From Luteitalea sp. (GTDB lineage: Bacteria; Acidobacteriota; Vicinamibacteria; Vicinamibacterales; Vicinamibacteraceae): a DNA stretch of 64,000 nucleotides. Made by a program: the position numbers and the translations under genes. How positions within the stretch are numbered: the first letter of the stretch is position 1; every line of letters begins with the position of its first letter. The stretch is taken from positions 1 to 64,000 of the forward strand of contig WHTT01000001.1 of NCBI GenBank assembly GCA_009377605.1, read 5' to 3'. Of this stretch, positions 6,858 to 25,345 are shown piece after piece. The notes below the pieces were generated by a model. It was given only the letters and a program-made list of their open reading frames with translations. It searched no databases and had not been told where the DNA came from.

Positions 6858-8738
6858 TCACATCGTCGGTGTATCGGACAAGCAGTCGCGCGCCGCAGAG
6901 AGTCCACCGATGGCAAAGATCAGTGGATAGAGCTCTTCGAAGTACCACAGTCGTGCGAAGTACAAACCGATCGGCGAAGCGGGTGTGCACTCGCCTCGCT
7001 TCGTCGCCTTCAGCAACCACTCCGCTCCGCGCGCAACGGCGCGCGTGACTCTGTCAGGGTCTGCATCCGACTTCGCGCGCGACAGCGCCGTCAATGCAAC
7101 GCCGGTCTCTTCGATGGATGAGGCCACGCCGCGGCTTCCACCCCAGCCGCCGTCCGCGTTTTGCGCGTCGAGCAACCAGGCCGTTCCTTGACGACGACAG
7201 TTGACCGCCTCCGCCGCGTCTCTGACGAGTGGCGCGTGCAATCCTGTAAGGACCCGCGCCGTTCCGTACGTCCCGTTCTCCTCGTCTGATGCGTGCTCGT
7301 TGCCGAACCAGAGTGGAATCCAGGCTCCCTCTGCGCGTTGTGCTCGGGCGATGTATCGCAACGCGCGACCGGAAGCGCGCAGAATCGCGGCGCGGACCGG
7401 GGGATCGAGCAGCTCGTGCCACGCGCTCAGAGCTTGCAGCGCGTGCGCGGTAATCTCGGGCGTGCTGCGATCGAAAGGTAGCGCGCCCCATCCGCGGCAG
7501 AAGGTTGGTATCCCACCGTCGCGATTCTGTACGCCGAGGAGCCAGCCGGCGCCCGCAGCTGCTTGGCGCCGGATCTCTGCATCGGGTGGACCGAGCCGGC
7601 GGAGTGCCAGCAGGGCGCCTGCGGTGTCGTCTGCGTCTGGGACGCCGCCGCTCAGATTGGTCCAGGCCCAGCCGCCAGGCGCCGCGTGGGTAAACGGATG
7701 CTCGCAGACAGGCTGCTGCGAGAGCAGCCAGGCACGCACACGCTCGGTGTCGATGCGCTCGAGCTCTCCCGCAGCCGCCAGCGCAGACACCGCCAGCGTC
7801 GTCACCCACGTCGCCAGGTTCGTATCGATTGGCCAGCTCCCATCACCTCGAGCGGACTCCTCGAGGAATCGAAGACCACGCTGGACGACGGGATGCCGAG
7901 CGTGCCCGGCGGCGGCGAGGCTCATCACGACGAAGCTGGTCAGCGGCGCTGCCTCGAGATAGCCGCCACTCTCTGGTTGCATGTTCCTCAGCACGTCGAG
8001 CGTTGGCCGGCGTAGGCGATTGCGGACGAGGCGCAGCACCGGATTGGAAGTTGGCGCGAAGTAATGGCGCACCTGGCCGATCGCGATGAGCGCAGGCAGC
8101 GCGTAGCTCACCACGGGAAGCCGCGCATGGTGAAACCATCGATGCGGAAGGGCGGCGAGCTCGAATGGAAGCTGCGGCACGCGCCGCCACGCTGTTGCAT
8201 CGTCGTGCCCCAGCTTGCCGGCCAGGGCGAGCACGGTCAGGATCGGGACCGAGAACGTCTTGTCTTTCCCGTATCGCCGGAGAATGGCCTCACGCAGCGC
8301 TTCCGGCTCGAGAGCATCCGCGCCGGACCCGAGCATGCCGCGTGAAGACTTCCGCAGCCACGCCTCCGCCCGTTCGCGATGAGCGCCGGTGAATGCGGGT
8401 CCCTCGCTTGTCTTCAGGGCAGGATGCGACGAAGCAATCGAGAGCGCCGACCACACGAGCGCCGTGGTGCTGAGGTTGCTGCGACTGCGCACGGTGTCTC
8501 CCCAGCCGCCATCTGCGTTCTGATGCGCCAGAAGCCACCGTGCGCCGTTGTCAACGAGGTGATCGAAGGGACCGAGACCTTCGCGGCTGGAGAGGGTCAG
8601 CGCCATAACCGCAGTTGCCGTGGAGAGCGCGCTGCTGGCCAGCGCACCTTCCCAGTGACCAGCCAGGACGCGGCGCTCGAGGAGTCGACGGGTCAGAGTC
8701 GCCAGCGTCGTGTCGAGGCTTTCACGGGATGGGCGCAT
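6858..8738 (-). CDS. Squalene-hopene cyclase-like class II terpene cyclase
   Basis: A 626-residue protein of the squalene-hopene/oxidosqualene cyclase fold, close to the 630-residue family norm. QW-type repeats are clear: QNADGGWGD at 73-81, a QNRDGG repeat near 415 and QNADGGWGG near 555. The catalytic class II motif is present as DADDTA (residues 368-373), preceded by the family context GGWAWTNLSGG. The C-terminus GLYFARLWYFEELYPLIFAI matches the conserved Tyr-rich end. It should cyclise squalene or a related polyprene by protonation at the membrane surface. No squalene synthase (HpnC/D/E) or other hopanoid gene is adjacent, so the substrate is open; a polyprenyl synthase lies 9 kb away. 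Confidence 0.85.
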   Translation of the reverse strand: MRPSRESLDTTLATLTRRLLERRVLAGHWEGALASSALSTATAVMALTLSSREGLGPFDHLVDNGARWLLAHQNADGGWGDTVRSRSNLSTTALVWSALSIASSHPALKTSEGPAFTGAHRERAEAWLRKSSRGMLGSGADALEPEALREAILRRYGKDKTFSVPILTVLALAGKLGHDDATAWRRVPQLPFELAALPHRWFHHARLPVVSYALPALIAIGQVRHYFAPTSNPVLRLVRNRLRRPTLDVLRNMQPESGGYLEAAPLTSFVVMSLAAAGHARHPVVQRGLRFLEESARGDGSWPIDTNLATWVTTLAVSALAAAGELERIDTERVRAWLLSQQPVCEHPFTHAAPGGWAWTNLSGGVPDADDTAGALLALRRLGPPDAEIRRQAAAGAGWLLGVQNRDGGIPTFCRGWGALPFDRSTPEITAHALQALSAWHELLDPPVRAAILRASGRALRYIARAQRAEGAWIPLWFGNEHASDEENGTYGTARVLTGLHAPLVRDAAEAVNCRRQGTAWLLDAQNADGGWGGSRGVASSIEETGVALTALSRAKSDADPDRVTRAVARGAEWLLKATKRGECTPASPIGLYFARLWYFEELYPLIFAIGGLSAARDCLSDTPTM

Positions 8739-8981: not shown

Positions 8982-9953
8982 TCAAGATATGTCTCTCACG
9001 GAAAACCGCCGGCGATAGGCGGTGGGTGTGGTTCGTAGTGAACGACGGAAGTGCAGCCGCAGCGTCGCAGCGGTCTGGAGGCCGACCGCTTCCGCAATGT
9101 CATCGACCGACTCGGGGCTCGTTTCCAGACGACGTTGGGCCGCGAGGAGACGCTGATGGGTCAGCCACTGATGCGGTGTCGTTCCCGTTTCTGCCTTGAA
9201 GCGCCGCGCAAACGTTCGCGATGACATCGCCGCACGTCGTGCGAGCGTGTCGACGCTCAGCGGCTCAGCGAGCCTGCTCTGCGCCCACTCGAGCACGGGC
9301 GCGAGTCCATTCGTCGCTTCGGTCCGAAGTGGTGCGGGAATGTATTGCGACTGTCCGCCGTCACGCTGCGGCGGAACGATGAGCCGGCGGGCCACCTGGT
9401 TGGCGACTTCTGCCCCGTAGTCGCGGCGCACGATGTGCAGACAGAGATCGATCCCTGCAGCGCTCCCGGCCGACGTCAGGATGTTGCCTTCGTCGACGTA
9501 GAGCACGTCCGGCTCCACATGCACGTTCGGGAAGCGTGCCCGCAGCCGATCCACGTGACGCCAGTGTGTCGTGGCGCGCTTGCCATCGAGCAGTCCCGCC
9601 TCGGCGAGGACGAATGCCCCGGTGCAGATCGTGACGAGACGGGCGCCGCGCGCGTGGGCGCCGCGCATGGCGTCAAGCAACGCCTCCGGGGCGGGATCGT
9701 CCACATCCCGACAGCCGGGAATCACGATCGTGCCCGCATGCTCGAGCGCGCGCAGGCCCGCGGTTGGCTGAAGCACGAGGCCTCCAGTGATCCTCAGCGG
9801 ACCGCGATCGGCCGAACAGACCTGAAACCGATACCAATCGACGTCCAGCTCTGGGCGAGCGAGCCCGAAGATGTCGACGACGATGCCGAACTCGAACGCC
9901 GAGAGGCGGTCGTATACCAGCGCAACGACGCGACGGTAATCGAGGCGCCGCAT
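8982..9953 (-). CDS. GlxA/FtrA family AraC-type transcriptional regulator
   Basis: A 323-residue regulator with an N-terminal DJ-1/PfpI-like domain (about residues 8-185, including the ICTGAFVLAEAGLLDG segment around the vestigial nucleophile Cys) and a C-terminal AraC double helix-turn-helix (about 215-320; motifs SVDTLARRAAMSSRTFARRF and the PTAYRRRF end). Such proteins usually act as activators of nitrogen or sulfur compound catabolism. It is divergent from the PLP enzyme at 10037 with an 83-base shared promoter region, so it probably controls that gene or itself. Confidence 0.92.
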   Translation of the reverse strand: MRRLDYRRVVALVYDRLSAFEFGIVVDIFGLARPELDVDWYRFQVCSADRGPLRITGGLVLQPTAGLRALEHAGTIVIPGCRDVDDPAPEALLDAMRGAHARGARLVTICTGAFVLAEAGLLDGKRATTHWRHVDRLRARFPNVHVEPDVLYVDEGNILTSAGSAAGIDLCLHIVRRDYGAEVANQVARRLIVPPQRDGGQSQYIPAPLRTEATNGLAPVLEWAQSRLAEPLSVDTLARRAAMSSRTFARRFKAETGTTPHQWLTHQRLLAAQRRLETSPESVDDIAEAVGLQTAATLRLHFRRSLRTTPTAYRRRFSVRDIS

Positions 9954-10036
9954 GGCAGGATCTTAACGCATATTGGCGTTTCTGCCTATCGACCGTCTGC
10001 ACGAGATCTGTGAGACTACGTCGAAGAGGTGAACAG

Positions 10037-11215
10037 ATGGAGCCTTTTCGAATGACGCGCGCAGTTCATGGCGGTCGTGATCCCCGCGACGGTGGTCCGG
10101 TTGTGCCCCCGATCTATCAGTCGGCGATGTTCGCGGCACGCACGCTCGAAGAGCAGGCTGAGCTGAGCACCACTGACCGCTTCTACATGCGCTATGACAG
10201 TCCGAACTTTCGTAGCGTCGAACGCGTGCTCGCCGACCTCGAGGAGACCGAGGACGCCGTTGTCTTTGGATCTGGCATGGCCGCGATCAGCACCGTGTTT
10301 CTGAGTCTCCTCGAGGTAGGCGATCACGTCATCGCGCTGCGCGATCTCTACGGCGGCACCGTGGAGTTCCTCGATCATCACCTGAAGCGCTTCGGAATGT
10401 CATTGACCTATGTCGATGCGGTCGAGCCAACTCATCTCGCCGAGGCGGTTCAGCCCAGGACGCGCCTTGTGTACGTCGAATCGCCAAGCAATCCGCTGCT
10501 TCGTCTCGTGGACTTGGAGAGCATGGCGCGCTTCTGCCGGGAGCATCGGCTGCTGTCGGTCATCGACAACACATTCGCGTCTCCTGTCAACCAGCGACCA
10601 CTGCGTCTGGGAATCGACGTGAGCCTCCACTCGGGCACGAAGTATCTCAGTGGTCACTCGGACGTGATTTGTGGTGCAGTGTGTGGAAGTCGTACGGTAA
10701 TGGCGCGTGTGCGCGAAGGCCGACGTGATTTCGGCGGCATTCTCGATCCGCACGCGGTCTTCCTGCTGCAGCGCGGCTTGAAGACGCTGGCACTGCGCGT
10801 CGAGCGCCAGAGCCAGAGTGCATTGACGCTCGCGACGTACCTGCAAAGCCGCCAGGAGATCCAGACGGTTCACTACCCGTTTCTGGACAGTCATCCGCAG
10901 CACGCGCTTGCGCGGCAGCAGATGGCCGGAGGTGGCGGGATGCTCAGCTTCGAGTTGACGAGCGGCCTGAACGCGACGCGTGTGTTCACCGAGTCGCTGA
11001 AGAGCTTCACGCTCGCAGGCAGCCTCGGCGGCGTCGAATCGCTCGTTACCGTCCCGGCGATCACCACGCACGGTCGATTGAGCCCGGAAAGGCGAGCGGC
11101 CATGGGCATCTCGGACGGTCTGATCCGGCTGTCGGTCGGCATCGAGGACGTCGAGGAGCTTCAGGCTGATCTGGATCAGGCGTTTCAACGGGTGGCCGAC
11201 TCCCGCGTCGCATGA
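10037..11215 (+). CDS. Cystathionine gamma-synthase/methionine gamma-lyase family PLP enzyme
   Basis: A 392-residue Cys/Met-metabolism PLP-dependent enzyme. Typical elements are PPIYQSAMFAA near the start, the YDSPNFRSVERVLADLE region, FGSGMAAISTVF, the cofactor-binding VIDNTFASPVNQRPL, and the Schiff-base lysine in LHSGTKYLSGHSDV. The C-terminus SLGGVESLVTVP and IRLSVGIEDVEELQADL is complete. Reactions in this family include cystathionine gamma-synthesis and beta- or gamma-elimination; sequence alone does not settle which. ATG 10037 is preferred over an upstream in-frame start because AGAGG lies seven bases upstream. The divergent GlxA-type regulator is the likely controller. Confidence 0.9.
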   Translation: MEPFRMTRAVHGGRDPRDGGPVVPPIYQSAMFAARTLEEQAELSTTDRFYMRYDSPNFRSVERVLADLEETEDAVVFGSGMAAISTVFLSLLEVGDHVIALRDLYGGTVEFLDHHLKRFGMSLTYVDAVEPTHLAEAVQPRTRLVYVESPSNPLLRLVDLESMARFCREHRLLSVIDNTFASPVNQRPLRLGIDVSLHSGTKYLSGHSDVICGAVCGSRTVMARVREGRRDFGGILDPHAVFLLQRGLKTLALRVERQSQSALTLATYLQSRQEIQTVHYPFLDSHPQHALARQQMAGGGGMLSFELTSGLNATRVFTESLKSFTLAGSLGGVESLVTVPAITTHGRLSPERRAAMGISDGLIRLSVGIEDVEELQADLDQAFQRVADSRVA

Positions 11216-16562: not shown

Positions 16563-17489
16563 TCAGAGTACGTCTATCCGTTTCCCACGTCGCTCGGCCG
16601 CTGACCCTGCCACCGCCAGGTGCCCGAGCGCGAGGAGGCCGTAGTAGGTGTACTCGCAATCGAGACCGTCATCCGCCCAATTGCCGTAGAAGCCGCCGCG
16701 GTTCGTCCACAGTGAGTCGATGAAGTCGAGGCAGGGCTCGAGAACGCCGGCCAGCGGGACGTGCAGCGTGGACAGGGCATGGAGCGCCGTAGCCGTGGAG
16801 AGCAGATCGGGGATTGGCGCGCCCGGCGTGGCGAAGAAACCGCCTTGAGGGTGACAGCGATCCAGCAGCCACACGCCGTGCTGAGGATCGATCGGCGCAT
16901 CGAGATACCGGCGCAACAGCACGGCAGCAGCCGTCGTGGCGGTGACGCCGTGCTCGAGGCCAGGCTGATTCCCATAACCTCCATCACGCGAGCGCAGGCC
17001 TTCGATTGAGCGCACGAGCGCCTCGGGATTGGGCAGCGCGCAACCGAGGTCCTGGTAGATGCCGAGTGCGAGAAACGCCGCGTAAATGGTGCCGCGCGGC
17101 GATCGCGCCACCTGCGCATAGCCGCCATCGTCGCTGCGGTAGGTCTCGAGTCGTGCGAGGAACCGATCGGCGGGCAGGCCGTCGAGCCGGTGCGAGAGCG
17201 TCGCCCAGCTGCGTACGAGACACGCGAGATGCACGAAATCCAGGCTCTCGCCGCTCCCGAACCGACCGAGATAGGTGGACGTACGCTCGGCCGGTAGGCC
17301 GGCCTGCAGAGCAACTAGGCCCTCCAGCCCGAACACGGTGTAGTAAAGATCGCTGACGCCAGCGCGATCTCGGAAGCCGCCTTCATCGCTCATCTGCTCG
17401 AGCAGGAAGGCGCGGACGAGCTCGGCCGATTCACCCAGCTGCGTGGGTGCGAGCCTCGCGATCTGCAGCATCTCGAGCCTGAAACTCAC
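16563..17489 (-). CDS. Prenyltransferase/squalene-oxidase repeat protein (protein prenyltransferase beta-like, zinc triad not evident)
   Basis: A roughly 308-residue alpha-alpha toroid protein resembling geranylgeranyl transferase beta subunits. Five or six GGF/GGY repeat turns are visible (DEGGFRD, DDGGYAQ, DGGYGNQ, PQGGFFA, RGGFYGN). In true protein prenyltransferases an Asp-x-Cys and a later His bind zinc; the matching places here read PDLLS and DCEYTYYG, so the triad seems lost, and there is no DxDD motif. It may therefore be a non-zinc enzyme or lipid-binding partner. The gene overlaps the end of the polyprenyl synthase gene. GTG 17489 is chosen because AAGGG precedes it by eight bases; ATG 17471 and GTG 17513 are alternatives. 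Last gene of the cluster. Confidence 0.75.
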   Translation of the reverse strand: MSFRLEMLQIARLAPTQLGESAELVRAFLLEQMSDEGGFRDRAGVSDLYYTVFGLEGLVALQAGLPAERTSTYLGRFGSGESLDFVHLACLVRSWATLSHRLDGLPADRFLARLETYRSDDGGYAQVARSPRGTIYAAFLALGIYQDLGCALPNPEALVRSIEGLRSRDGGYGNQPGLEHGVTATTAAAVLLRRYLDAPIDPQHGVWLLDRCHPQGGFFATPGAPIPDLLSTATALHALSTLHVPLAGVLEPCLDFIDSLWTNRGGFYGNWADDGLDCEYTYYGLLALGHLAVAGSAAERRGKRIDVL

Positions 17490-19158
17490 TGCACCAGCCC
17501 TTGATCTCGACACGGAAGATCTTGCCCACCACGCGCCGCAGCAGTCCCTTCAGGCTCGCGTGCTGCAGATCCGGCAGCGTCCGGATGGCATGTTCTTTGT
17601 ACCCTTCGAGCAGCGCGTGGGCACGTGCCTCGGCGCCAAGCTCGGTGACCAGCGTCCGGACTGCGTCTGGGCCGGCCGTATCCTGCAAGCGCCGGCGCCA
17701 GAGCTGATCCAACGTCTCACGCGCCGACCCCTTGGCCTTTTCGAAGGCGAGCGCCAGCGGCAACGACGGCCGCATGGCGCCCACGTCATCCGGCGCGTGG
17801 CTCTCGACGAGATCCTCGAGGTCGTCTCGAATCTGATAGGCAACACCGAGCGCTTCGCTGTAGCGGTGCAAGACGTCGTGCACCTCTGTCGATGCGCCGC
17901 CGAGCACGCCGCCGAGTCGGAGCGCTACCTCGAACGCCGGCGCCGTCTTGCGACGGAAGATGTCGATGACCTCGGCGGATGGGAGCGGCGCCGGTGTGCG
18001 GGCCCACGCGAGCTCCGCCCCTTGGCCCAGCGTGAGTTGTCGATGACCCTCTGCCGCGATCCTCACGAGCTCTGCACGCGATACGGCCGTGGTGTCGGCT
18101 GCTGCCAAGAGCCGGTAGCCCTCACCGACCAGCAGGTCGCCCACGTTGAGTGCGACAGGAACGCCCTGCTCGACGTGGAGTGTCTCTCGTCCATACCGCT
18201 GCGCGTCATCGTCCTCGATATCGTCATGGACGAGCGAGGCCTTGTGAAAGCATTCGACCGCAACAGCGACCTGTCTGAGCGCTGTGGGAAGCGGCGCCGT
18301 CGGGTCGTCTTGCAGGGCGCGATAGACACACGCCGTCAGGAACGGCCGCCACCGCTTGCCCGCGGCCGCGAGCCATCGCCTGGCAACGATATCGGCGTCG
18401 CCTTCCGTTGGGCCCATCAACTCATCGAGCGCCTCGGGCGCGAACCAGCCCTCGACCTCGTCGCGCAGCGCATCCAAATCGAGGCGACGTGTCCGGTCGT
18501 CGCTCGTGAGGTGCACCACGCTCCAGATCCACTCCAGATCGACCGCTGTGTCTTTGCAATCATCTTGGAGCAGCGGGATCGCGACGCCGGGAACGGCTGC
18601 GGACTCCATGTAGGGGAACGCGCGCTCGAGCACCGACAAGCAGCTCACCCCCACGATCGCGTCGACCTTCCCGGTCTGGATGAGCGCCATGACGATCGCC
18701 GATCCCTCCGCGACGAGCACAGCGTAGCCCAGACGTTCCGCCTCCACTTGCAGGTCCTGAATCGTGCAGAGCCCACACTGCTTACACAACAGACCGAACT
18801 CGTCGAAAGGAGCGGGGCATTTGTCCTCGACGCGCAGACACTTCGGCAAGAGCAGCAGTCGCCGCTCGTACGGCACGGTCGCGAGCTGTTCGTGCCACAC
18901 TTCGTTATTGATGAGCACGCCGATGTAGTCCCGATAGATCGGGTCGGTGTCGGTGAGCGCGACGAGCGTATCGGCCTGCTGACGCAACTCGTCCAGCACG
19001 AGCGGCGGTACCAAGGTCGACCGCCGCGCCTCGACATAGCGCACTACCAGCGAGCGCAGCTGCTCGCGCTCCGGTAAGGTCTGCGGGATGTTCGCCTGCG
19101 GCGGCCGTTCCGGCATCGACGGGAGGACACGCAGGAGCTTGGGTGCGGGCAAAGTCAT
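17431..19158 (-). CDS. DUF116-polyprenyl diphosphate synthase fusion
   Basis: A 575-residue two-domain protein. Residues about 95-215 are DUF116, with a cysteine pattern C107, C114, C125, C128, C131 (the CKQCGLC motif) that should bind an Fe-S cluster or zinc, then AIVGVSCLSVLERAF. Residues about 255-540 are an all-trans polyprenyl synthase: GKRWRP (268-273), first aspartate-rich motif DDIEDD (312-317), LTLGQG (376-381), and second aspartate-rich motif DDLED (445-449). Both motifs are intact, so chain elongation of isoprenoid diphosphates is expected. The fusion places an isoprenoid synthase under a possible redox domain. It overlaps the prenyltransferase-repeat gene downstream and is preceded by a heptamer hairpin. 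Confidence 0.88.
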   Translation of the reverse strand: MTLPAPKLLRVLPSMPERPPQANIPQTLPEREQLRSLVVRYVEARRSTLVPPLVLDELRQQADTLVALTDTDPIYRDYIGVLINNEVWHEQLATVPYERRLLLLPKCLRVEDKCPAPFDEFGLLCKQCGLCTIQDLQVEAERLGYAVLVAEGSAIVMALIQTGKVDAIVGVSCLSVLERAFPYMESAAVPGVAIPLLQDDCKDTAVDLEWIWSVVHLTSDDRTRRLDLDALRDEVEGWFAPEALDELMGPTEGDADIVARRWLAAAGKRWRPFLTACVYRALQDDPTAPLPTALRQVAVAVECFHKASLVHDDIEDDDAQRYGRETLHVEQGVPVALNVGDLLVGEGYRLLAAADTTAVSRAELVRIAAEGHRQLTLGQGAELAWARTPAPLPSAEVIDIFRRKTAPAFEVALRLGGVLGGASTEVHDVLHRYSEALGVAYQIRDDLEDLVESHAPDDVGAMRPSLPLALAFEKAKGSARETLDQLWRRRLQDTAGPDAVRTLVTELGAEARAHALLEGYKEHAIRTLPDLQHASLKGLLRRVVGKIFRVEIKGWCSEFQARDAADREARTHAAG

Positions 19159-19270: not shown

Positions 19271-20464
19271 CTAGCTATAGGCGCCGAATCCGAAAAACCA
19301 CCGTTTCTTGGCAAAGCGATACGCCCAGTGTTCTTCCGGGATCTCATGGCCCGGATTGTGTTGGCTGCGGCGTGGCGTCATCGCCTCCACTTCCGCAAGC
19401 GCGGTGCCGCGCTGTGTCGTGTCGCGGGCGCCATGCTTCTGCACGAGGTCGCGTACGAGATCGGGCCGTTCGAGCACGATGCAGCCGCGCGTGGCGCGAG
19501 CCGCCGTCTCGCGGAAGTCCTGCAGGAACGGGGATCGCGTCATGGTCTCGTAGAACGACGCGCCGTCGCGGACCGTGCTCGTGGCGAACTGCAGGATTGG
19601 ACAAGGCTCGATGTCGCCCGACGGTCCGATGTGATGACTCACGCCGGTCGCCATGGGACAGAGAGCCTCGCCGCGATCATCCCAGTACGCGTCGACGATG
19701 GCGATGGGCAGCCGCGCACGCATTTCCACGATGAAGCGGCGGACTGCAAGCGTCTGCTCCGGTCTGAGCGCCAGCTCCGGCGACGGCTTTGGACCCGCGA
19801 CTCGATACGTGTGAAACCACACGTAGTGGACGCCGAGGTCGATCAAGCGCCGCAGCCAGCTCTCGGACACGAGATCGTCGATGTTGCTCTGGCACACGCT
19901 CGTCGCGACGCCAACGAGGAGCTTGTGTCGGCGGCAGGCCTCCAGACCAGCGAGTGTGCGTGTGAGCACCTCGGTGCGTCCGCGCCGCTGGTCGCTCACC
20001 ACCGCTGTTCCCTCCACGCTGATGAGCGGCGTGACGTTGCCCAGTCGGCGCAGCTCGCTTGCGACAGCATCGGTGATGAGCTGTCCGTTCGTGAAGACCT
20101 GAAAGTAACAATCGCGATGGGTCGCGAACAGCTCGAGCAGCTGCGGGTGCAGAAATGGCTCACCGCCCAGAATCCCGAAGTACGCATTGCCGTGTGCCTT
20201 CGCGTCCCCGACGATGCGGTTCAGGTCGTCGAGCGAAAGCTTCTCGGCTGGTGCTGCCACATCGACCCAGCAGCCGTGGCAGCGTAGCTGGCAGCTCGAG
20301 ATCACGGAGATGAACAGGAATGGCGGAAAGTACTCGCCGCGACGAAGGCGCCGCTTGTACAGCTCGACCGAGCGGATCCCCTTGACCCCGAAGTTGTACA
20401 CGAACTTGCCAACGACCTTGGGGTCGGCTTCGGTCAGCACGCGGCGAGCAAGCTGGAACAGCAT
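19271..20464 (-). CDS. Radical SAM enzyme with auxiliary cysteines
   Basis: A 397-residue radical SAM protein. The cluster motif is C58-x3-C62-x2-C65 in SSCQLRCHGCW, followed by the SAM-binding GGEP at 100-103. C-terminal cysteines (C269 in ALCPM, C288 in EPCPI, C328 in RGCIV) suggest an auxiliary SPASM-like cluster site. It does not match lipoyl synthase or the hopanoid HpnH motif. The substrate is unknown; the position between an Fe-S/lipoyl carrier operon and isoprenoid genes suggests modification of a polyprenyl lipid or a protein. It is separated from the ferredoxin gene upstream by a REP pair and from the synthase downstream by a heptamer hairpin, all on the same strand. Confidence 0.87.
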   Translation of the reverse strand: MLFQLARRVLTEADPKVVGKFVYNFGVKGIRSVELYKRRLRRGEYFPPFLFISVISSCQLRCHGCWVDVAAPAEKLSLDDLNRIVGDAKAHGNAYFGILGGEPFLHPQLLELFATHRDCYFQVFTNGQLITDAVASELRRLGNVTPLISVEGTAVVSDQRRGRTEVLTRTLAGLEACRRHKLLVGVATSVCQSNIDDLVSESWLRRLIDLGVHYVWFHTYRVAGPKPSPELALRPEQTLAVRRFIVEMRARLPIAIVDAYWDDRGEALCPMATGVSHHIGPSGDIEPCPILQFATSTVRDGASFYETMTRSPFLQDFRETAARATRGCIVLERPDLVRDLVQKHGARDTTQRGTALAEVEAMTPRRSQHNPGHEIPEEHWAYRFAKKRWFFGFGAYS

Positions 20465-20478
20465 AAAGGACGAACTCC

Positions 20479-20554
20479 GTAGCGCAGGCCTTTAGGCCTG
20501 CTTTTGCCGTGGCCTCTCTTCGCCGCGGTTGGCAGGCCTGAAGGCCTGCGCTAC
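20479..20554. repeat. Inverted pair of REP-like elements (GTAGCGCAGGCCTTTAGGCCTGC)
   Basis: A GTAG-footed hairpin (20479-20501) and an oppositely oriented copy (20531-20554, ending GCGCTAC), 29 bases apart. It is BIME-like and lies between the ferredoxin and radical SAM genes, which could attenuate transcription into the latter. Confidence 0.75.
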
Positions 20555-20564
20555 GTACGAATAT

Positions 20565-20620
20565 CTGACGCCTAACCCCTGACGCCTACTGACCCCTGAC
20601 CCCTGACGCCTGATCCCTGG
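20565..20620. repeat. Heptamer-periodic tract (CTGACCC/CTGACGC)
   Basis: Degenerate heptamers CTGACGC, CTAACCC, CTGACCC and CTGATCC repeat about eight times. The tract overlaps the 3' end of the ferredoxin gene, encoding its last residues (QASGVRGQ) and its stop at 20586. Confidence 0.65.
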
Positions 20621-21431
20621 CGCGTGCCCTTGCCGCCTCGGACTTCTCGCGAATCTCGTCCGGCGATGGGAGCGCGGCCAGCACTTCGGCCGGCACGCCG
20701 AGCTCCTTCTGCAACTTCACCAGACAATTCTGCCGTTCCTTGAGCGCGCGCTCATCGTCGCGCTCTTTGGAGAAGCGCGACTGTGCCTTCGCGCTGCGAT
20801 CCCGGAGCGCCGCGTAGATGTCGCCGCCAAGGAGCGAGGAGATGTCGACCTTCATCGCCTCGCGGCGCACGTCATCCACATCCACCTTGTCACCGTTGAT
20901 CGGCCCGTGGCGATACTTCGGAAACATGATGGCCACTTCCGGGCACACGCGCGAGCAGGCCGGACAATCCGTCTTGCAGTTGGTCTGGTTCTGCACCTGG
21001 ATCTTGCCGTCCGACGACACACCGTAGACGTCGAATAGGCAAAAGCTCAGACACTGCATGCAGTTCGTGCAGCGTGTGTAGTCGATCACCGGAAACCAAG
21101 GCTTCCAGGGCTTGGAGGTCTCCGTCCTCTCGGCGGCGCGGAGGCTGTCCATAGCGTCCGCCAGCGCGCTCGGTGCGAGCCCGTCTACTTCCTGGAACTG
21201 CGTGCCGGCGACCGGAGGCTCGGGCACGCGGCCACCGTAACGGCCGACAACGATCGGCGGCTCGCCAGCGACGGCGCTGCCGACCGACGCTGCTTCATCA
21301 CCGACGCACGAGACCTCATAGCCGCGCTCGAGCAGGGTCCGCAGGATCGCACCACGTTCGCCCGCCGCAAGAGCGGCGCTCCCGCGCGTGATGACCAGTG
21401 CCCGTGGCGCCCTCGGAACCGGCATCGTCAT
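20586..21431 (-). CDS. Double [4Fe-4S] ferredoxin-domain protein
   Basis: A 281-residue protein. The N-terminal third (RALVITRGSAALAAGERGAI) is unrecognised. Then two cluster sites: C121-x2-C-x2-C-x3-C131 in CTNCMQCLSFC and C152-x3-C156-x2-C159-x3-C163 in CKTDCPACSRVC. The C-terminal region is charged and probably coiled-coil. It should be an electron carrier for the neighbouring radical SAM or HdrA-like partner. ATG 21431 overlaps the preceding stop in ATGA, so it is translationally coupled to the small cysteine protein. The extreme C-terminus is encoded by a heptamer repeat and is unlikely to be functional. Confidence 0.85.
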   Translation of the reverse strand: MTMPVPRAPRALVITRGSAALAAGERGAILRTLLERGYEVSCVGDEAASVGSAVAGEPPIVVGRYGGRVPEPPVAGTQFQEVDGLAPSALADAMDSLRAAERTETSKPWKPWFPVIDYTRCTNCMQCLSFCLFDVYGVSSDGKIQVQNQTNCKTDCPACSRVCPEVAIMFPKYRHGPINGDKVDVDDVRREAMKVDISSLLGGDIYAALRDRSAKAQSRFSKERDDERALKERQNCLVKLQKELGVPAEVLAALPSPDEIREKSEAARARARDQASGVRGQ

Positions 21432-21847
21432 CGCGAGCTCTCCATCTCGCCAGCGTCGCTCTCCGGCGCGAGCAGCCCGTGCGCGACGTCGTCTGCGGTT
21501 TCTGTGCGCATGTTGAGAATCTGGACCCGGTCGTCTGCCAGCTCGGCACCGGCTGCGGCAAACAGCCAGCGCACGGCACGCGGATAGCACGCCGCGATGC
21601 GGAGACGTCCCTGCGCCGCAAGCTCACGCAAGCGCGGATCCGCTCGCGCGGCCATCTCGCAAAGGTCAGGGACGGCGTCGAACTCGACATCCGCTTCGGC
21701 GAGCCGATCCAACACCGCCGTCTTGACGTCCACTGGCAGCACTCGGGCATGTACGCAGTGACAGTAGAGGACGCCTGGGCGAGGCGTCCGTCCCTCCCCA
21801 TCGTCAGGTGCGTTCGCCGAAGGCGCCGTGTCAGGTGTCGTCTTCAC
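21428..21847 (-). CDS. Small cysteine protein resembling the HdrA N-terminal cluster domain
   Basis: A 139-residue protein with C29 and C31 (LYCHC), C63 (DLC) and C87 (RIAACYPR). The layout, a CxC start, a middle Cys about 30 residues on, and an AACxPR-like segment, recalls the N-terminal domain of heterodisulfide reductase subunit HdrA, which binds a [4Fe-4S] cluster; this is a pattern judgement, not a proven homology. There is no FAD domain. Residues 20-28 are encoded by a REP-like palindrome, so the conserved part begins about residue 25. Both ends overlap neighbours by ATGA, placing it tightly between CobW and the ferredoxin. Confidence 0.72.
   Translation of the reverse strand: MKTTPDTAPSANAPDDGEGRTPRPGVLYCHCVHARVLPVDVKTAVLDRLAEADVEFDAVPDLCEMAARADPRLRELAAQGRLRIAACYPRAVRWLFAAAGAELADDRVQILNMRTETADDVAHGLLAPESDAGEMESSR
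21764..21789. repeat. REP-like palindrome inside a coding sequence
   Basis: A GTAG foot, then GGACGCC/GGCGTCC arms around a GGGCGA-type loop. It encodes residues 20-28 of the HdrA-like protein, just before the first conserved cysteine. Confidence 0.65.
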
Positions 21848-22959
21848 AGGTCCGCTCCAATCGTTGCCATGCGATGCGTCGGACTCGGTCTGCCTGGGCG
21901 GAAATATTCGCTGTGCTCGATTGTGGCGTCGACGCCCATTTCTCGCGACGCTTCGACCAATGTTTCGCCGACCACCACATGTAGATGGTTCGGGTCACCC
22001 TCGGCGCGGAGATTGAGAATCAGCTGTCCCTCGGCCACGGCCTCGTCGAGGCGATGCGACAGCTCCGGCTCCCCGTCCGTTCGCACGAGGTTGAGTGCTG
22101 CAATGTCGTCCCCTTCGACCGGTGTGAGCGTCATCTTCAGGTGCGCAATCTCGAGCCCATCTGCGGCGAGTCGCCCACGGATGCCGCTTGCCAGCCGTTG
22201 CAAGAAACGGTTCCCGTCAACCGGCGCCGGCGCTGCGATGCGCACCGTCGCGTTGAGCCAACCAAGCAACGCTTCGCCCTCGGCATACATGTCGTAGTCG
22301 ATATCCATCGCACGACGGTCGGCGAGCGTCGTCGCGGCGAGGCGGCCGAACCACTGGTCGAGGTTCGAGCCGGTCCGCGCGCTCACCGTGAAGATTTCTG
22401 CCTGCGGGTAACGGTCGTGCAGCGCCCCCTGAAGCGTGCGCTGCTCGTCGGCGGTCAACAGATCGCTCTTGTTGATGACAATGAAGTCTGCTTCCTCGAG
22501 CTGTTTCTCGTACACATAGAGCACTTTGGGTGAGAACGTGCGGCCAGGCTCGAGGCCCAGGATGCGTCGCGCGCGCATCGGATCGACCAGCACGCTCAGC
22601 GGCGCAATCCGGTAGTCGTTCCCATAGAGGCGGCTCAGTGGGTACTGCACGGTTGCGCGGAGATCGGTGCAGCTCCCAACTGGCTCGGCGAGGAAGACGT
22701 GGGGCTTGGCCTCCTGCATCAGTCGGTCCGAGGCCTCGGTCAGGGAGTTGAAGCGACAGCAGAAGCAGCCACCGGTGATCTCCTGAACGGGGTAGCCGTG
22801 CGCGGTGACAAACGAGGTATCGACCAGCCCATGGCTTTGGTCGTTGGTGATGAGGCCGACTCGGCGTCCCTGTTTTGTCAGATGCTCCGCCAAGCGCAAC
22901 AATGCTGTCGTCTTCCCAGCCCCTAGGAAGCCCCCCACCATCATGTAGTCAGCGCTCAT
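21844..22959 (-). CDS. CobW/HypB/UreG-family GTPase (COG0523 metallochaperone)
   Basis: A 371-residue P-loop GTPase of the CobW family, which handles metal delivery. Walker A is GGFLGAGKTT (9-18), the metal-binding CxCC motif is GCFCC (C65, C67, C68), and NKSD gives base specificity. The C-terminal domain is divergent, with HLHVVVGE near the end rather than the His-rich tail of classical CobW. ATG 22959 follows family norms; an in-frame start fifteen codons upstream lies within the preceding gene. It overlaps the H-protein-like gene by 11 bases and the downstream gene by ATGA. It may insert or protect a metal for an Fe-S or radical enzyme in the cluster. Confidence 0.9.
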   Translation of the reverse strand: MSADYMMVGGFLGAGKTTALLRLAEHLTKQGRRVGLITNDQSHGLVDTSFVTAHGYPVQEITGGCFCCRFNSLTEASDRLMQEAKPHVFLAEPVGSCTDLRATVQYPLSRLYGNDYRIAPLSVLVDPMRARRILGLEPGRTFSPKVLYVYEKQLEEADFIVINKSDLLTADEQRTLQGALHDRYPQAEIFTVSARTGSNLDQWFGRLAATTLADRRAMDIDYDMYAEGEALLGWLNATVRIAAPAPVDGNRFLQRLASGIRGRLAADGLEIAHLKMTLTPVEGDDIAALNLVRTDGEPELSHRLDEAVAEGQLILNLRAEGDPNHLHVVVGETLVEASREMGVDATIEHSEYFRPGRPSPTHRMATIGADL

Positions 22960-23434
22960 CGTTCGCTCCCTCGTCAGCGTGGCGGCTTGCGAGCATCTTG
23001 TCAATCGTCACATCGAGAATCGCGGTGTAGCCGTGCACGTCCACCGCGTCCTCCGCCGGCTGGCCTTCGAGCCGATACAACCAGCCCTGTCCGTATGGGT
23101 CCGACTCGATGAGCGTGATGTCGCTGCCAATCGGGCCGCCGGCATCCAGGAACCGTCCGGTTCCCACCGAGAAGATCGTCGTCACCGCTTTCAATCCCTC
23201 CATCCAGCCGATATCCTCACCGACTGAGATGGCCGCGCCCGGCGACCGCGTGAGCTCGTATTCCACGACGTCGCCCAGCATGCGCGTCGCGAACTTCGTG
23301 AAGCCAATGCGCCAGATGCCCGATGCTTCCTCGGCCAGCCAGTAGTGCGCCGCGGTATACCGGCGGTCGACTGGCAAGTGCGTCGTGAAGCGCGACCGGC
23401 GATAGTAGACCGACTCGCCGCGCCATCGGCTCAT
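22949..23434 (-). CDS. GcvH-like lipoyl-carrier protein
   Basis: A 161-residue protein with the glycine cleavage H-protein fold: GIWRIGFTKFATRMLGDVVEYEL, then GWMEGLKAVTTIFSVGTGRF with Lys82 in the position of the lipoylated lysine, and SDPYGQGWLYRLEG near the end. It is longer than classical GcvH (about 129 residues), with an 18-residue N-terminal and about 25-residue C-terminal extension. No gcvT or gcvP is adjacent, so it is probably not a glycine cleavage component; H-like proteins serve as lipoate carriers in sulfur-oxidation (sHdr) systems. Coupled by ATGA overlap to the cysteine desulfurase and by 11 bases to CobW. A lipoate ligase lies just beyond. Confidence 0.87.
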   Translation of the reverse strand: MSRWRGESVYYRRSRFTTHLPVDRRYTAAHYWLAEEASGIWRIGFTKFATRMLGDVVEYELTRSPGAAISVGEDIGWMEGLKAVTTIFSVGTGRFLDAGGPIGSDITLIESDPYGQGWLYRLEGQPAEDAVDVHGYTAILDVTIDKMLASRHADEGANDER

Positions 23435-24603
23435 GAAGCTCGACTCCCGACGGCTCGGACGCCGCTGGGCTCCGGCGCTTGCAGCCGTTCGAGTGCCGCG
23501 ACCATGGCCGAACAGTCAGGGAGCTCCGACGTCGCACACCATGACAAGCGCAGCGCACCTGCTTGTCGCCATTCCGGCAGTCGCATCGCGCTGAGCACGT
23601 GACTGCAGGTGTAGGTTTGTGACGTGCAAGCGGCTCCGTTGGAGATCGCCACGAGGTCGCGCCACCGATCGATCGCTGTCTCGGCATCGATGCCGGGGAA
23701 TGAGACATTCAGGATCTCCGGCACGGACCGATCCGGATCGCCATTGATCACCGGCTGCAGCGGAGCCAAGCCATCGAGCAACGCGCGTTTGAGCTCACGA
23801 CACCGTTCACGCCGTCTGGCGCCCTCGACGACAGCCAACTCGGCAGCCTTGCCGAAGGCCACGATGAGCGGCACCGCCAGCGTGCCAGGTCGCAGGCCCC
23901 GTTCCTGCCCGCCGCCGAACATCAGCGGCCGCAGGCTGGGTCGCACGCCTCCTCGTCGCCGCACGATTAGCGCGCCGATACCCTTCGGTCCATGCATCTT
24001 GTGTGCGCTCGCGCTGATGAGGTCGATCCGAGGATGGCTCAGCGCCGCGCACTCACGACCGAAGCTTTGCGCCGCGTCGACGTGGAAGTAGATGTCGCGC
24101 TCCTGGAGGAGGCGTGCCACCTCCGCGACGGGCTGAATCACCCCGGTCTCGTTGTTCACGTGCATGAGGCTCACGGCGAGTGTGTCAGGCCGCAAGACCG
24201 CGCGGATGGCCTCGGGCTCGACCCAGCCCGCACCGTTCGGGGAGACCAGCGTCACCTCGAAGCCGCGTCCTTGCAATTCGGCCAGTGGCTCGAGGACGGC
24301 GTGGTGCTCGATCTCGCTCGCAACGATGTGCCGCCGATCCTCGGCGCTGGCAGCCGCCAGTCCGAGAAGGGCAAGATTGTTGCTCTCCGTGGCACCGCTC
24401 GTGAAGACCACGTCACCGCGTGAGGTGCCGATCACTGCTGCAACACGGTCGCGCGCCTGCTCGACGGCGGCCCGAGCCCGTTGGCCGAAGTCATGCGTGC
24501 GGCTTCCGGCATTGCCGAAGTCCTCGTCCAGATATCGCAGCATCTCCGCGCGCACGCGAGCATCGAGCGGCGTTGTTGCAGCACAGTCCAGATAAACTGG
24601 CAT
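23431..24603 (-). CDS. Cysteine desulfurase (NifS/IscS family)
   Basis: A 390-residue PLP enzyme that takes sulfur from cysteine as a persulfide. Features are YLDCAATTPLDARVRAEML at the start, FTSGATESNNLALLG, the PLP-binding ASAHKMHGPKGIGALIV (Schiff-base Lys) and NGAACTSQTYTCSHVL containing the likely catalytic Cys loop. ATG 24603 gives the standard MPVYLD start. No IscU/SufU scaffold or regulator is next to it, which sets it apart from a housekeeping isc operon. First gene of the five-gene overlapping unit; divergent from the lipoate ligase gene across a REP pair. Confidence 0.94.
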   Translation of the reverse strand: MPVYLDCAATTPLDARVRAEMLRYLDEDFGNAGSRTHDFGQRARAAVEQARDRVAAVIGTSRGDVVFTSGATESNNLALLGLAAASAEDRRHIVASEIEHHAVLEPLAELQGRGFEVTLVSPNGAGWVEPEAIRAVLRPDTLAVSLMHVNNETGVIQPVAEVARLLQERDIYFHVDAAQSFGRECAALSHPRIDLISASAHKMHGPKGIGALIVRRRGGVRPSLRPLMFGGGQERGLRPGTLAVPLIVAFGKAAELAVVEGARRRERCRELKRALLDGLAPLQPVINGDPDRSVPEILNVSFPGIDAETAIDRWRDLVAISNGAACTSQTYTCSHVLSAMRLPEWRQAGALRLSWCATSELPDCSAMVAALERLQAPEPSGVRAVGSRAS

Positions 24604-24645
24604 CACCCGCGTCCTAAGCCCTGAGCTCACTTGACGGGCCTCGTA

Positions 24646-24705
24646 GTAGCGCAGGCCTTTAGGCCTGCCGGCGGCGGGATTGGCAGGCCTGAAGGCCTGC
24701 GCTAC
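24646..24705. repeat. Inverted pair of REP-like elements in a divergent promoter region
   Basis: The GTAGCGCAGGCCTTTAGGCCTGC hairpin (24646-24668) and its inverted partner (24682-24705) are 13 bases apart. They fill most of the 118-base space between the cysteine desulfurase and lipoate ligase starts. Confidence 0.75.
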
Positions 24706-24721
24706 GAGTACCCTGATTCAG

Positions 24722-25345
24722 ATGCACCTCATCGCCGACCAACCAGATCTCAGCGCCACGGACCAGGTCGCTCAGGACTGGGCGCTGTTTCGCGCAGCCG
24801 AGGACGGATCGGCCAATGAGACGCTTCGGTTTTGGGAGACGATCCACCCCACTGTCGTCATTGGACGCGGCGGTCACCTTACTGACGAGGTCTTCGAACA
24901 GTCGTGCGCGTTGGACGGCGTGCCCATCGCCCGTCGCTGCTCCGGCGGCGGCGCCGTCGTCCTCGCATCCGGCTGTTTGAATTACGCCTTGGTGCTCTCA
25001 CTTGTTCAGCGTCCGGACCTGGTGGACTTGCGCCGGAGCTACCACATCATCCTCGAGCGGTTGGCCGAGGCGCTCGCGGTGCCGGGTCTCAGGCCCTCTG
25101 GCACGTCTGACCTCGGGGTGGACGGCCGTAAAGTCTCGGGGAATGCCCAACGCCGGGGCCGGAGAGCCCTCCTCCACCATGGGACCTTGCTCTATGCCTT
25201 CGACCCGCGCCTGTCGGAACGATACGTACGGGAGCCGGTTCGTCAGCCGCCTTACCGTCGCGGCCGGCCACACGTCGACTTCCTGACCAACCTCCCCCTT
25301 CCGGTGCATGCCATTCGTAAGCGCGTTGCCGCCGCCTGGCTGTGA
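24722..25345 (+). CDS. Lipoate-protein ligase A family protein
   Basis: A 207-residue BPL/LPL-fold enzyme, short for LplA because it lacks the C-terminal accessory domain. Motifs are the RRCSGGGAVVLASGCLNYALV loop for lipoyl-AMP binding and the catalytic lysine in GVDGRKVSGNAQRRGRRALLHHGTLLY. It is likely to attach lipoate (or octanoate) to the GcvH-like protein encoded by the divergent operon. ATG 24722 is chosen because the upstream in-frame codons lie in a REP element. Whether it is a ligase or a transferase cannot be told from sequence. Confidence 0.88.
   Translation: MHLIADQPDLSATDQVAQDWALFRAAEDGSANETLRFWETIHPTVVIGRGGHLTDEVFEQSCALDGVPIARRCSGGGAVVLASGCLNYALVLSLVQRPDLVDLRRSYHIILERLAEALAVPGLRPSGTSDLGVDGRKVSGNAQRRGRRALLHHGTLLYAFDPRLSERYVREPVRQPPYRRGRPHVDFLTNLPLPVHAIRKRVAAAWL

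Follow-up and report, generated by a model that had tools for sequence, protein, structure and literature searches.

A stand-alone remote relative of the HdrA N-terminal cluster domain, coupled to a ferredoxin in a conserved operon with terpenoid-type genes

Background

To our knowledge, the N-terminal cluster domain of HdrA is known only from inside the large, flavin-containing Hdr enzymes of anaerobes. Its cluster sits between the flavin and a ferredoxin domain inserted in HdrA, and is completed by a cysteine of a partner subunit (PMC9012536). In sulfur oxidisers, the sHdr system goes together with the lipoyl protein LbpA and dedicated LplA ligases (PMC6067878).

Here we describe a locus in a stretch of 64,000 nucleotides from Luteitalea sp. 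(contig WHTT01000001.1, referred to as the window), in which a domain of the HdrA N-terminal type is encoded as a free subunit, in a genome that also carries a haem-copper oxidase. The original prediction for this DNA was that a small protein resembling the start of HdrA and a double-cluster ferredoxin together look like parts of a heterodisulfide-reductase electron chain that has been split into small subunits. The likeness to HdrA and the coupling to the ferredoxin stand in our analysis, but the heterodisulfide-reductase chain is not supported. We refer to the small protein as HdrN, to the ferredoxin as Fd, and to a fusion of DUF116 with a polyprenyl diphosphate synthase as DUF116-PPS. Coordinates and main characteristics of all features are given in Table 1.

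Table 1 Genes of the HdrN locus in the window, with coordinates, strands and main characteristics
Feature	Coordinates	Strand	Characteristics
HdrN	21428..21847	-	GTG start, 139 aa; C29, C31, C63, C87 invariant; stand-alone, remotely homologous to the N-terminal cluster domain of HdrA
Fd	20586..21431	-	281 aa, ATG start; N-domain of about 100 residues (alpha/beta), two [4Fe-4S] motifs, helical tail
CobW/COG0523-type GTPase	21844..22959	-	Pfam cobW 5.6e-25; GGCFCC motif, conserved
GcvH-like lipoyl H-protein	22949..23434	-	Invariant E79, lipoyl lysine K82
Class V aminotransferase, NifS/IscS/DndA-type cysteine desulfurase	23431..24630	-	
Single-domain LplA-type lipoate-protein ligase	24680..25345	+	Divergently transcribed; 18/89 loci
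Radical SAM enzyme	19271..20464	-	CX3CX2C plus further conserved Cys; Pfam 7.3e-14
DUF116-PPS	17431..19158	-	Seven invariant Cys; both Asp-rich motifs
Tor1, single alpha/alpha toroid (Pfam Prenyltrans)	16563..17489	-	Start overlaps end of DUF116-PPS
Tor2, squalene-hopene-cyclase-type class II cyclase	6858..8738	-	DxDD; SQHop_cyclase_N and SQHop_cyclase_C

Results

Cysteine layout and conservation of HdrN

The cysteines of HdrN are spaced as CxC-X31-C-X23-C, with C87 lying within AACYPR, and the protein stops after this N-terminal type of domain, so that both the predicted layout (CxC, Cys, AACxPR) and the predicted lack of a flavin domain were found as described. About 90 relatives, spread over Acidobacteriota, Verrucomicrobiota, Planctomycetota and further phyla, have the same four cysteines without exception. 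In alignments this was true of 54 relatives and, once divergent ones had been added, of 62 of 62, the latter being the widest set; conservation in homologues, which had been named as a check of the prediction, therefore held in every aligned member. The pattern CxC-x29-34-C-x21-26-[AVSTG]C-x-P-[RK] has 87 matches among the 15,718 open frames of the loci and none outside HdrN genes. Taken together, the invariance and a pattern that matches HdrN genes alone argue that the layout is not due to chance, and the four cysteines are predicted to hold a [4Fe-4S] cluster. Selenocysteine in HdrN relatives was considered and rejected, as the frames flagged with one TGA were cases of read-through of a stop upstream of the true start.

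Relationship to the N-terminal domain of HdrA

No match to HdrN was found in Pfam, in NCBIfam or among PDB chains, the last searched with the single sequence as well as with a profile, and a search of its own genome with a profile of the HdrA N-terminal domain gave no hit. About 50 diverse HdrA N-terminal domains were taken from other Acidobacteriota. HHalign against four HdrA sequences only had given a probability of 7%, which rose to 47% and then to 76% as both families were diversified. The comparison of HdrN with the set of about 50 domains scored 28.0 (P 1.9e-4); among the corresponding controls, 150 column-shuffled profiles scored 12.0 ± 2.5 with a maximum of 19.8, the reversed profile scored 15.5, and eight unrelated families did not exceed 20.5. 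Addition of eight divergent HdrN domains raised the score from 28.0 to 32.7 (probability 76%, single-comparison P 2.3e-5), compared to 11.9 ± 2.5 and a maximum of 20.2 for shuffled profiles. In this alignment the cysteines, the AAC-PR motif and N-x-R are collinear across the whole domain. HdrA sequences taken from PDB matches read CxC-X32-C-X24-AAC-SPR where HdrN reads CxC-X31-C-X23-AAC-YPR, and N-x-R lies near the end of both. The alignment of C29, C31, C63 and C87 with HdrA, also proposed as a check, thus gave collinear cysteines with nearly identical spacing. On this profile-profile evidence we accept HdrN as a remote homologue of the HdrA N-terminal domain, which bears out the likeness originally noted.

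The AlphaFold model of HdrN is confident (pLDDT 87) and Rossmann-like. A Foldseek search of the PDB with this model returned no significant match; generic Rossmann folds ranked at the top and HdrA (5odc) was at rank 43, with 104 columns and 19% identity, an outcome that fits the relationship but does not decide it. Membership of HdrN in HdrA itself was also tested and rejected: the flavin domain, HdrBC partners and a match to the family model are all absent, and motifs beyond the cysteines are shared only in part.

Two further observations were made on HdrA and HdrA-like proteins of other Acidobacteriota. In five loci (L115, L119, L120, L122 and L129), an in-frame TGA lies in the HdrA context TMDCSI(TGA)ILGPKM. 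It is likely a selenocysteine, at or near the cysteine that completes the N-terminal cluster of the neighbouring subunit (Cys197 of structural papers); selenocysteine-containing HdrA is already known. Separately, a divergent domain similar to the N-terminal one of HdrA, but with a different first motif (C-S/x-GC-xIG), opens proteins of about 750 residues in eight loci (L146, L147, L150, L155, L157 and L161-L163).

Search for an Hdr complex in the same genome

The genome that contains the window (6.8 Mb, 97.5% complete) was searched for components of an Hdr complex. FlpD/MvhD (PF02662) was found neither in the genome nor as a domain in HdrN, and the genome has no HdrA. Candidates for HdrB were rejected, as the CCG-domain matches belong to LutA in a LutABC operon, to GlcF-type proteins and to ETF-linked proteins. 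No HdrB or HdrC partner was thus found in the genome, where a search for hdrB and hdrC had been suggested, or among the neighbours of the operon. While this agrees with the original statement that an Hdr complex is lacking, it goes against the interpretation of the locus as a split heterodisulfide-reductase chain, of which the flavin domain of HdrA, HdrB and HdrC are all absent. The same interpretation is further opposed by Fd, which is at least as similar to generic dicluster ferredoxins of the PorD/HgcB type as to HdrA, and by the terpenoid and radical-SAM neighbourhood. HdrN and Fd could also be left over, or split off, from a genuine Hdr complex and serve to reduce a heterodisulfide. This would accord with the HdrA-N homology, but given the lack of HdrA, FlpD and HdrBC in the genome, the terpenoid context and the haem-copper oxidase we regard it as very improbable.

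Coupling of HdrN and Fd

HdrN ends in a TGA that overlaps the ATG of Fd by four bases (ATGA), which confirms the predicted overlap; on the other side, the start of HdrN overlaps the stop of the CobW gene by 4 nt. Fd accompanies HdrN in 87 of 89 loci, and the two form the tightest pair of the operon. A 4-nt start/stop overlap joins them in 59 of 87 loci, whereas Fd overlaps the radical SAM gene in this way in 8 of 69 and the radical SAM gene overlaps DUF116-PPS in 7 of 63. Genes unrelated to the pair (HicBA-like, four-helix and DUF433-like ORFs, as named by eye) have been inserted between HdrN and Fd in Verrucomicrobiota, with order and strand kept. Moreover, at least six divergent Planctomycetota loci (L190-L195, L197) encode HdrN and Fd as one polypeptide, some 250-330 residues long. 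In these fusions the HdrN domain is followed immediately by the W-x-PWFP ferredoxin part and replaces the N-domain of Fd, which is missing. Together, gene fusion and coupling argue strongly that HdrN and Fd function as a unit, a tighter relationship than had been claimed.

The cluster motifs of Fd are CTNCMQCLSFC and CKTDCPACSRVCP. They have weak and generic matches to PorD, HgcB, FwdF and HdrA models, none of which is over the cut-off, and the fold search with Fd was uninformative, its predicted model being poor in the cluster region. The possibility that the N-domain of Fd is a copy of HdrN without cysteines was rejected; by eye the two line up in register, yet they score 14.2, which lies inside the shuffled range.

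Composition and order of the operon

Clustering of open reading frames from 89 loci gave a recurrent order of NifS, GcvH-like protein, CobW GTPase, HdrN, Fd, radical SAM enzyme, DUF116-PPS, Tor1 and Tor2, preceded in some loci by a divergent LplA gene. In the window, the predicted lipoyl carrier is present but not adjacent to HdrN, as it lies two genes upstream with the CobW-type GTPase in between. It is a second copy, with a canonical GcvH elsewhere in the genome. In 53 of the 89 loci NifS is part of the operon or lies elsewhere on its contig. The LplA-type ligase stands beside the operon mainly in loci labelled Acidobacteriota and is similar to the ligases dedicated to LbpA in sulfur oxidisers (PMC6067878).

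The radical SAM enzyme has the motif of its fold family and matches that family, with C58, C62 and C65 invariant. Its closest sequence matches in the PDB are SkfB and BlsE, and no NCBIfam family scored above its cut-off. A defence function was considered and rejected, the only similarity being a weak one to viperin-type radical SAM proteins. The gap between the genes of Fd and the radical SAM enzyme (20478-20555 and 20565-20625) contains a 24-nt REP-like inverted repeat and CTGACSCCT direct repeats. In the synthase part of DUF116-PPS, D312, D313, E315 and D316 of one motif and D445, D446 and D449 of the other are conserved, as in polyprenyl synthases. The overlap of DUF116-PPS and Tor1 is 50-60 nt long and is kept across phyla in most loci, which points to translational coupling or to a pair of subunits. 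A second, divergent fusion of DUF116 and a polyprenyl synthase (338 bits) stands alone at 9074-10975 of a planctomycete locus (L181, genome G294), with no other gene of the operon. Tor2 adjoins Tor1 in most loci and lies about 8 kb downstream in the window; with both SQHop_cyclase domains and the DxDD acid, it has the features of a class II terpene cyclase. Neither plasmid-borne copies nor RNA elements were found.

Two of the loci with fused HdrN-Fd, L191 and L194, have the fusion directly upstream of the radical SAM enzyme, DUF116-PPS, Tor1 and Tor2, with no GcvH, CobW or NifS nearby. The core of the operon therefore appears to be HdrN-Fd and the terpenoid genes; the lipoyl carrier is common but absent near the fused genes, and so is not the core partner. 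The radical SAM gene is itself missing from a few HdrN-Fd loci that have DUF116-PPS (L190, L058 and L093) and lies away from the pair in others (L023 and L067), for which reason its role as direct acceptor is not certain.

Distribution

HdrN was found in 9 of 60 genomes consisting of the window's own and near relatives. In GTDB genomes, a wider scan detected 169 HdrN coding stretches, the best 80 of which are in MAGs assigned to Acidobacteria/Vicinamibacteria, Verrucomicrobia, Planctomycetes, KSB1, Hydrogenedentota and others, some of the labels looking unreliable. The gene is present in 5 of 247 sampled Acidobacteriota genomes, and within this sample Tor2 is found in precisely those five and no other. 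In the phylum to which a planctomycete member belongs, 36 of 294 genomes carry HdrN. Full-length DUF116-PPS was present in 10 of the 12 genomes tested, genomes with a split operon included; in one of the remaining two the operon is cut at a contig end, and the other is a small MAG of 3.3 Mb. The functional link thus goes beyond synteny, as seen in the co-occurrence of HdrN with Tor2 and in the presence of the synthase in split-operon genomes.

Discussion

We propose that HdrN-Fd is a small, dedicated and flavin-free electron-transfer module that serves the radical SAM step, the DUF116 step or both in a terpenoid pathway. This is the simplest reading, and we give it about an even chance. Fd would take electrons from the reductant of the cell through its two [4Fe-4S] clusters and hand them to the cluster of HdrN, which may then pass them to a low-potential acceptor, namely the radical SAM enzyme and/or the Cys-rich DUF116 domain. 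The pair would in effect do the job of the N-terminal cluster and the inserted ferredoxin domain of HdrA, freed from flavin and HdrBC. DUF116-PPS would supply a polyprenyl diphosphate, which Tor2 together with Tor1 would cyclise and radical SAM chemistry would modify, leading to a modified and probably cyclised polyprenyl compound. Most members add the lipoyl H-protein, the cysteine desulfurase and the CobW GTPase, perhaps for sulfur or cluster supply. We base this reading on the invariant cysteines, the HHalign relationship to HdrA, the confident HdrN model, the constant pairing, kept order, overlap and fusion with Fd, the gene sets of L191 and L194, the shared occurrence of HdrN and Tor2 and the wide presence of DUF116-PPS, and also on HdrA itself, in which electrons bound for the inserted ferredoxin domain have the N-terminal cluster on their path (PMC9012536). 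Points against it are the Foldseek outcome, the poor Fd model in the cluster region, the loci in which the radical SAM gene is missing or set apart, and the partner-subunit cysteine of HdrA, which has no evident equivalent here.

The dedicated second GcvH with its invariant lipoyl lysine, the NifS gene in the operon or on the same contig, and the single-domain LplA that adjoins the operon in many Acidobacteriota, as LbpA and LplA do in sulfur oxidisers (PMC6067878), would also suit a function similar to that of sHdr. The desulfurase would then load sulfur onto the lipoyl H-protein, and HdrN-Fd would reduce or oxidise the lipoyl-bound sulfur for its insertion into the terpenoid. However, this does not explain the loci in which fused HdrN-Fd stands with the radical SAM enzyme, DUF116-PPS, Tor1 and Tor2 and with no GcvH, CobW or NifS nearby, and the recurrent neighbours include no recognisable TusA, DsrE or HdrBC family. 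We consider it the main rival, though an unlikely one. Those same loci bear on another idea, in which HdrN is not an electron carrier but works with CobW and the desulfurase in assembly or repair and supplies the radical SAM or DUF116 enzyme with an Fe-S cluster. A NifS-type desulfurase and a CobW-type metallochaperone GTPase in one operon speak for such a factor, but neither is found near the fused HdrN-Fd genes, and the partner that persists where others have gone is a ferredoxin, joined to HdrN in frame; this seems to us a quite improbable function. There is also a slim chance that HdrN holds zinc or acts as a dithiol/disulfide protein, and that the likeness to HdrA reflects a shared fold without a cluster, as four cysteines can bind zinc too and the fold match is not specific. 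Against it are the order of the cysteines and their spacing, near-identical to that of the HdrA N-terminal domain, and the ferredoxin partner.

Returning to the electron-transfer module, the operon as a whole could encode an undescribed pathway for a new class of cyclic terpenoid, possibly sulfur-bearing, in which radical-SAM and DUF116 chemistry on a polyprenyl diphosphate is powered by a purpose-made donor composed of an HdrA-N-type protein and a ferredoxin, with a lipoyl carrier assisting, in Acidobacteriota, Verrucomicrobiota, Planctomycetota and others. We advance this wider proposal tentatively, as somewhat short of an even chance. No description of the operon was found in the open-access literature searched, a body that lacks most subscription papers. 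HdrN is a marker of a conserved operon that unites terpenoid cyclases, a radical SAM enzyme, DUF116 and a lipoyl carrier, and the fusion to a polyprenyl synthase gives DUF116 a context. A new lipid or terpenoid pathway, if it is one, becomes directly testable in three environmentally abundant phyla.

Comparison to known systems

The N-terminal domain of HdrA (PDB 5odc, 7bkb, 8rvu and 9sfi) shares with HdrN the cysteine spacing, AACxPR, N-x-R, a Rossmann-like fold and a dicluster ferredoxin beside it. Unlike HdrA, HdrN is free-standing or fused directly to the ferredoxin, and it has neither the CxCGxN, SPRxHE and NIRE motifs nor the flavin domain; the cluster cysteine that HdrA receives from a partner subunit has no obvious counterpart around HdrN. 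Ferredoxin domains of the PorD, HgcB and HdrA types have two [4Fe-4S] motifs as Fd does, whereas the N-domain, the C-terminal helices and a second motif of the form CX3CX2CX3C set Fd apart. In the same way, Tor2 resembles squalene-hopene cyclases in its domains, its DxDD motif and its matches to their structures in the PDB, but it scores far below curated hopene-cyclase cut-offs and is clustered with DUF116-PPS, the radical SAM enzyme and HdrN-Fd. The sHdr system with LbpA and LplA is comparable in having a dedicated GcvH-like lipoyl protein distinct from GcvH (K82 is invariant here and its lipoylation is predicted), a single-domain LplA, an HdrA-related protein and ferredoxin-type clusters. 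The operon differs from it in that the cluster has no sHdrA, sHdrB or sHdrC gene and neither HdrB, HdrC nor a full HdrA, in the presence of a polyprenyl synthase, cyclases and a radical SAM enzyme, and in a lipoyl part that is not universal. Compared to these systems, the HdrN-Fd module may be seen as a known domain in a new variant, and the complete pathway may itself be new.
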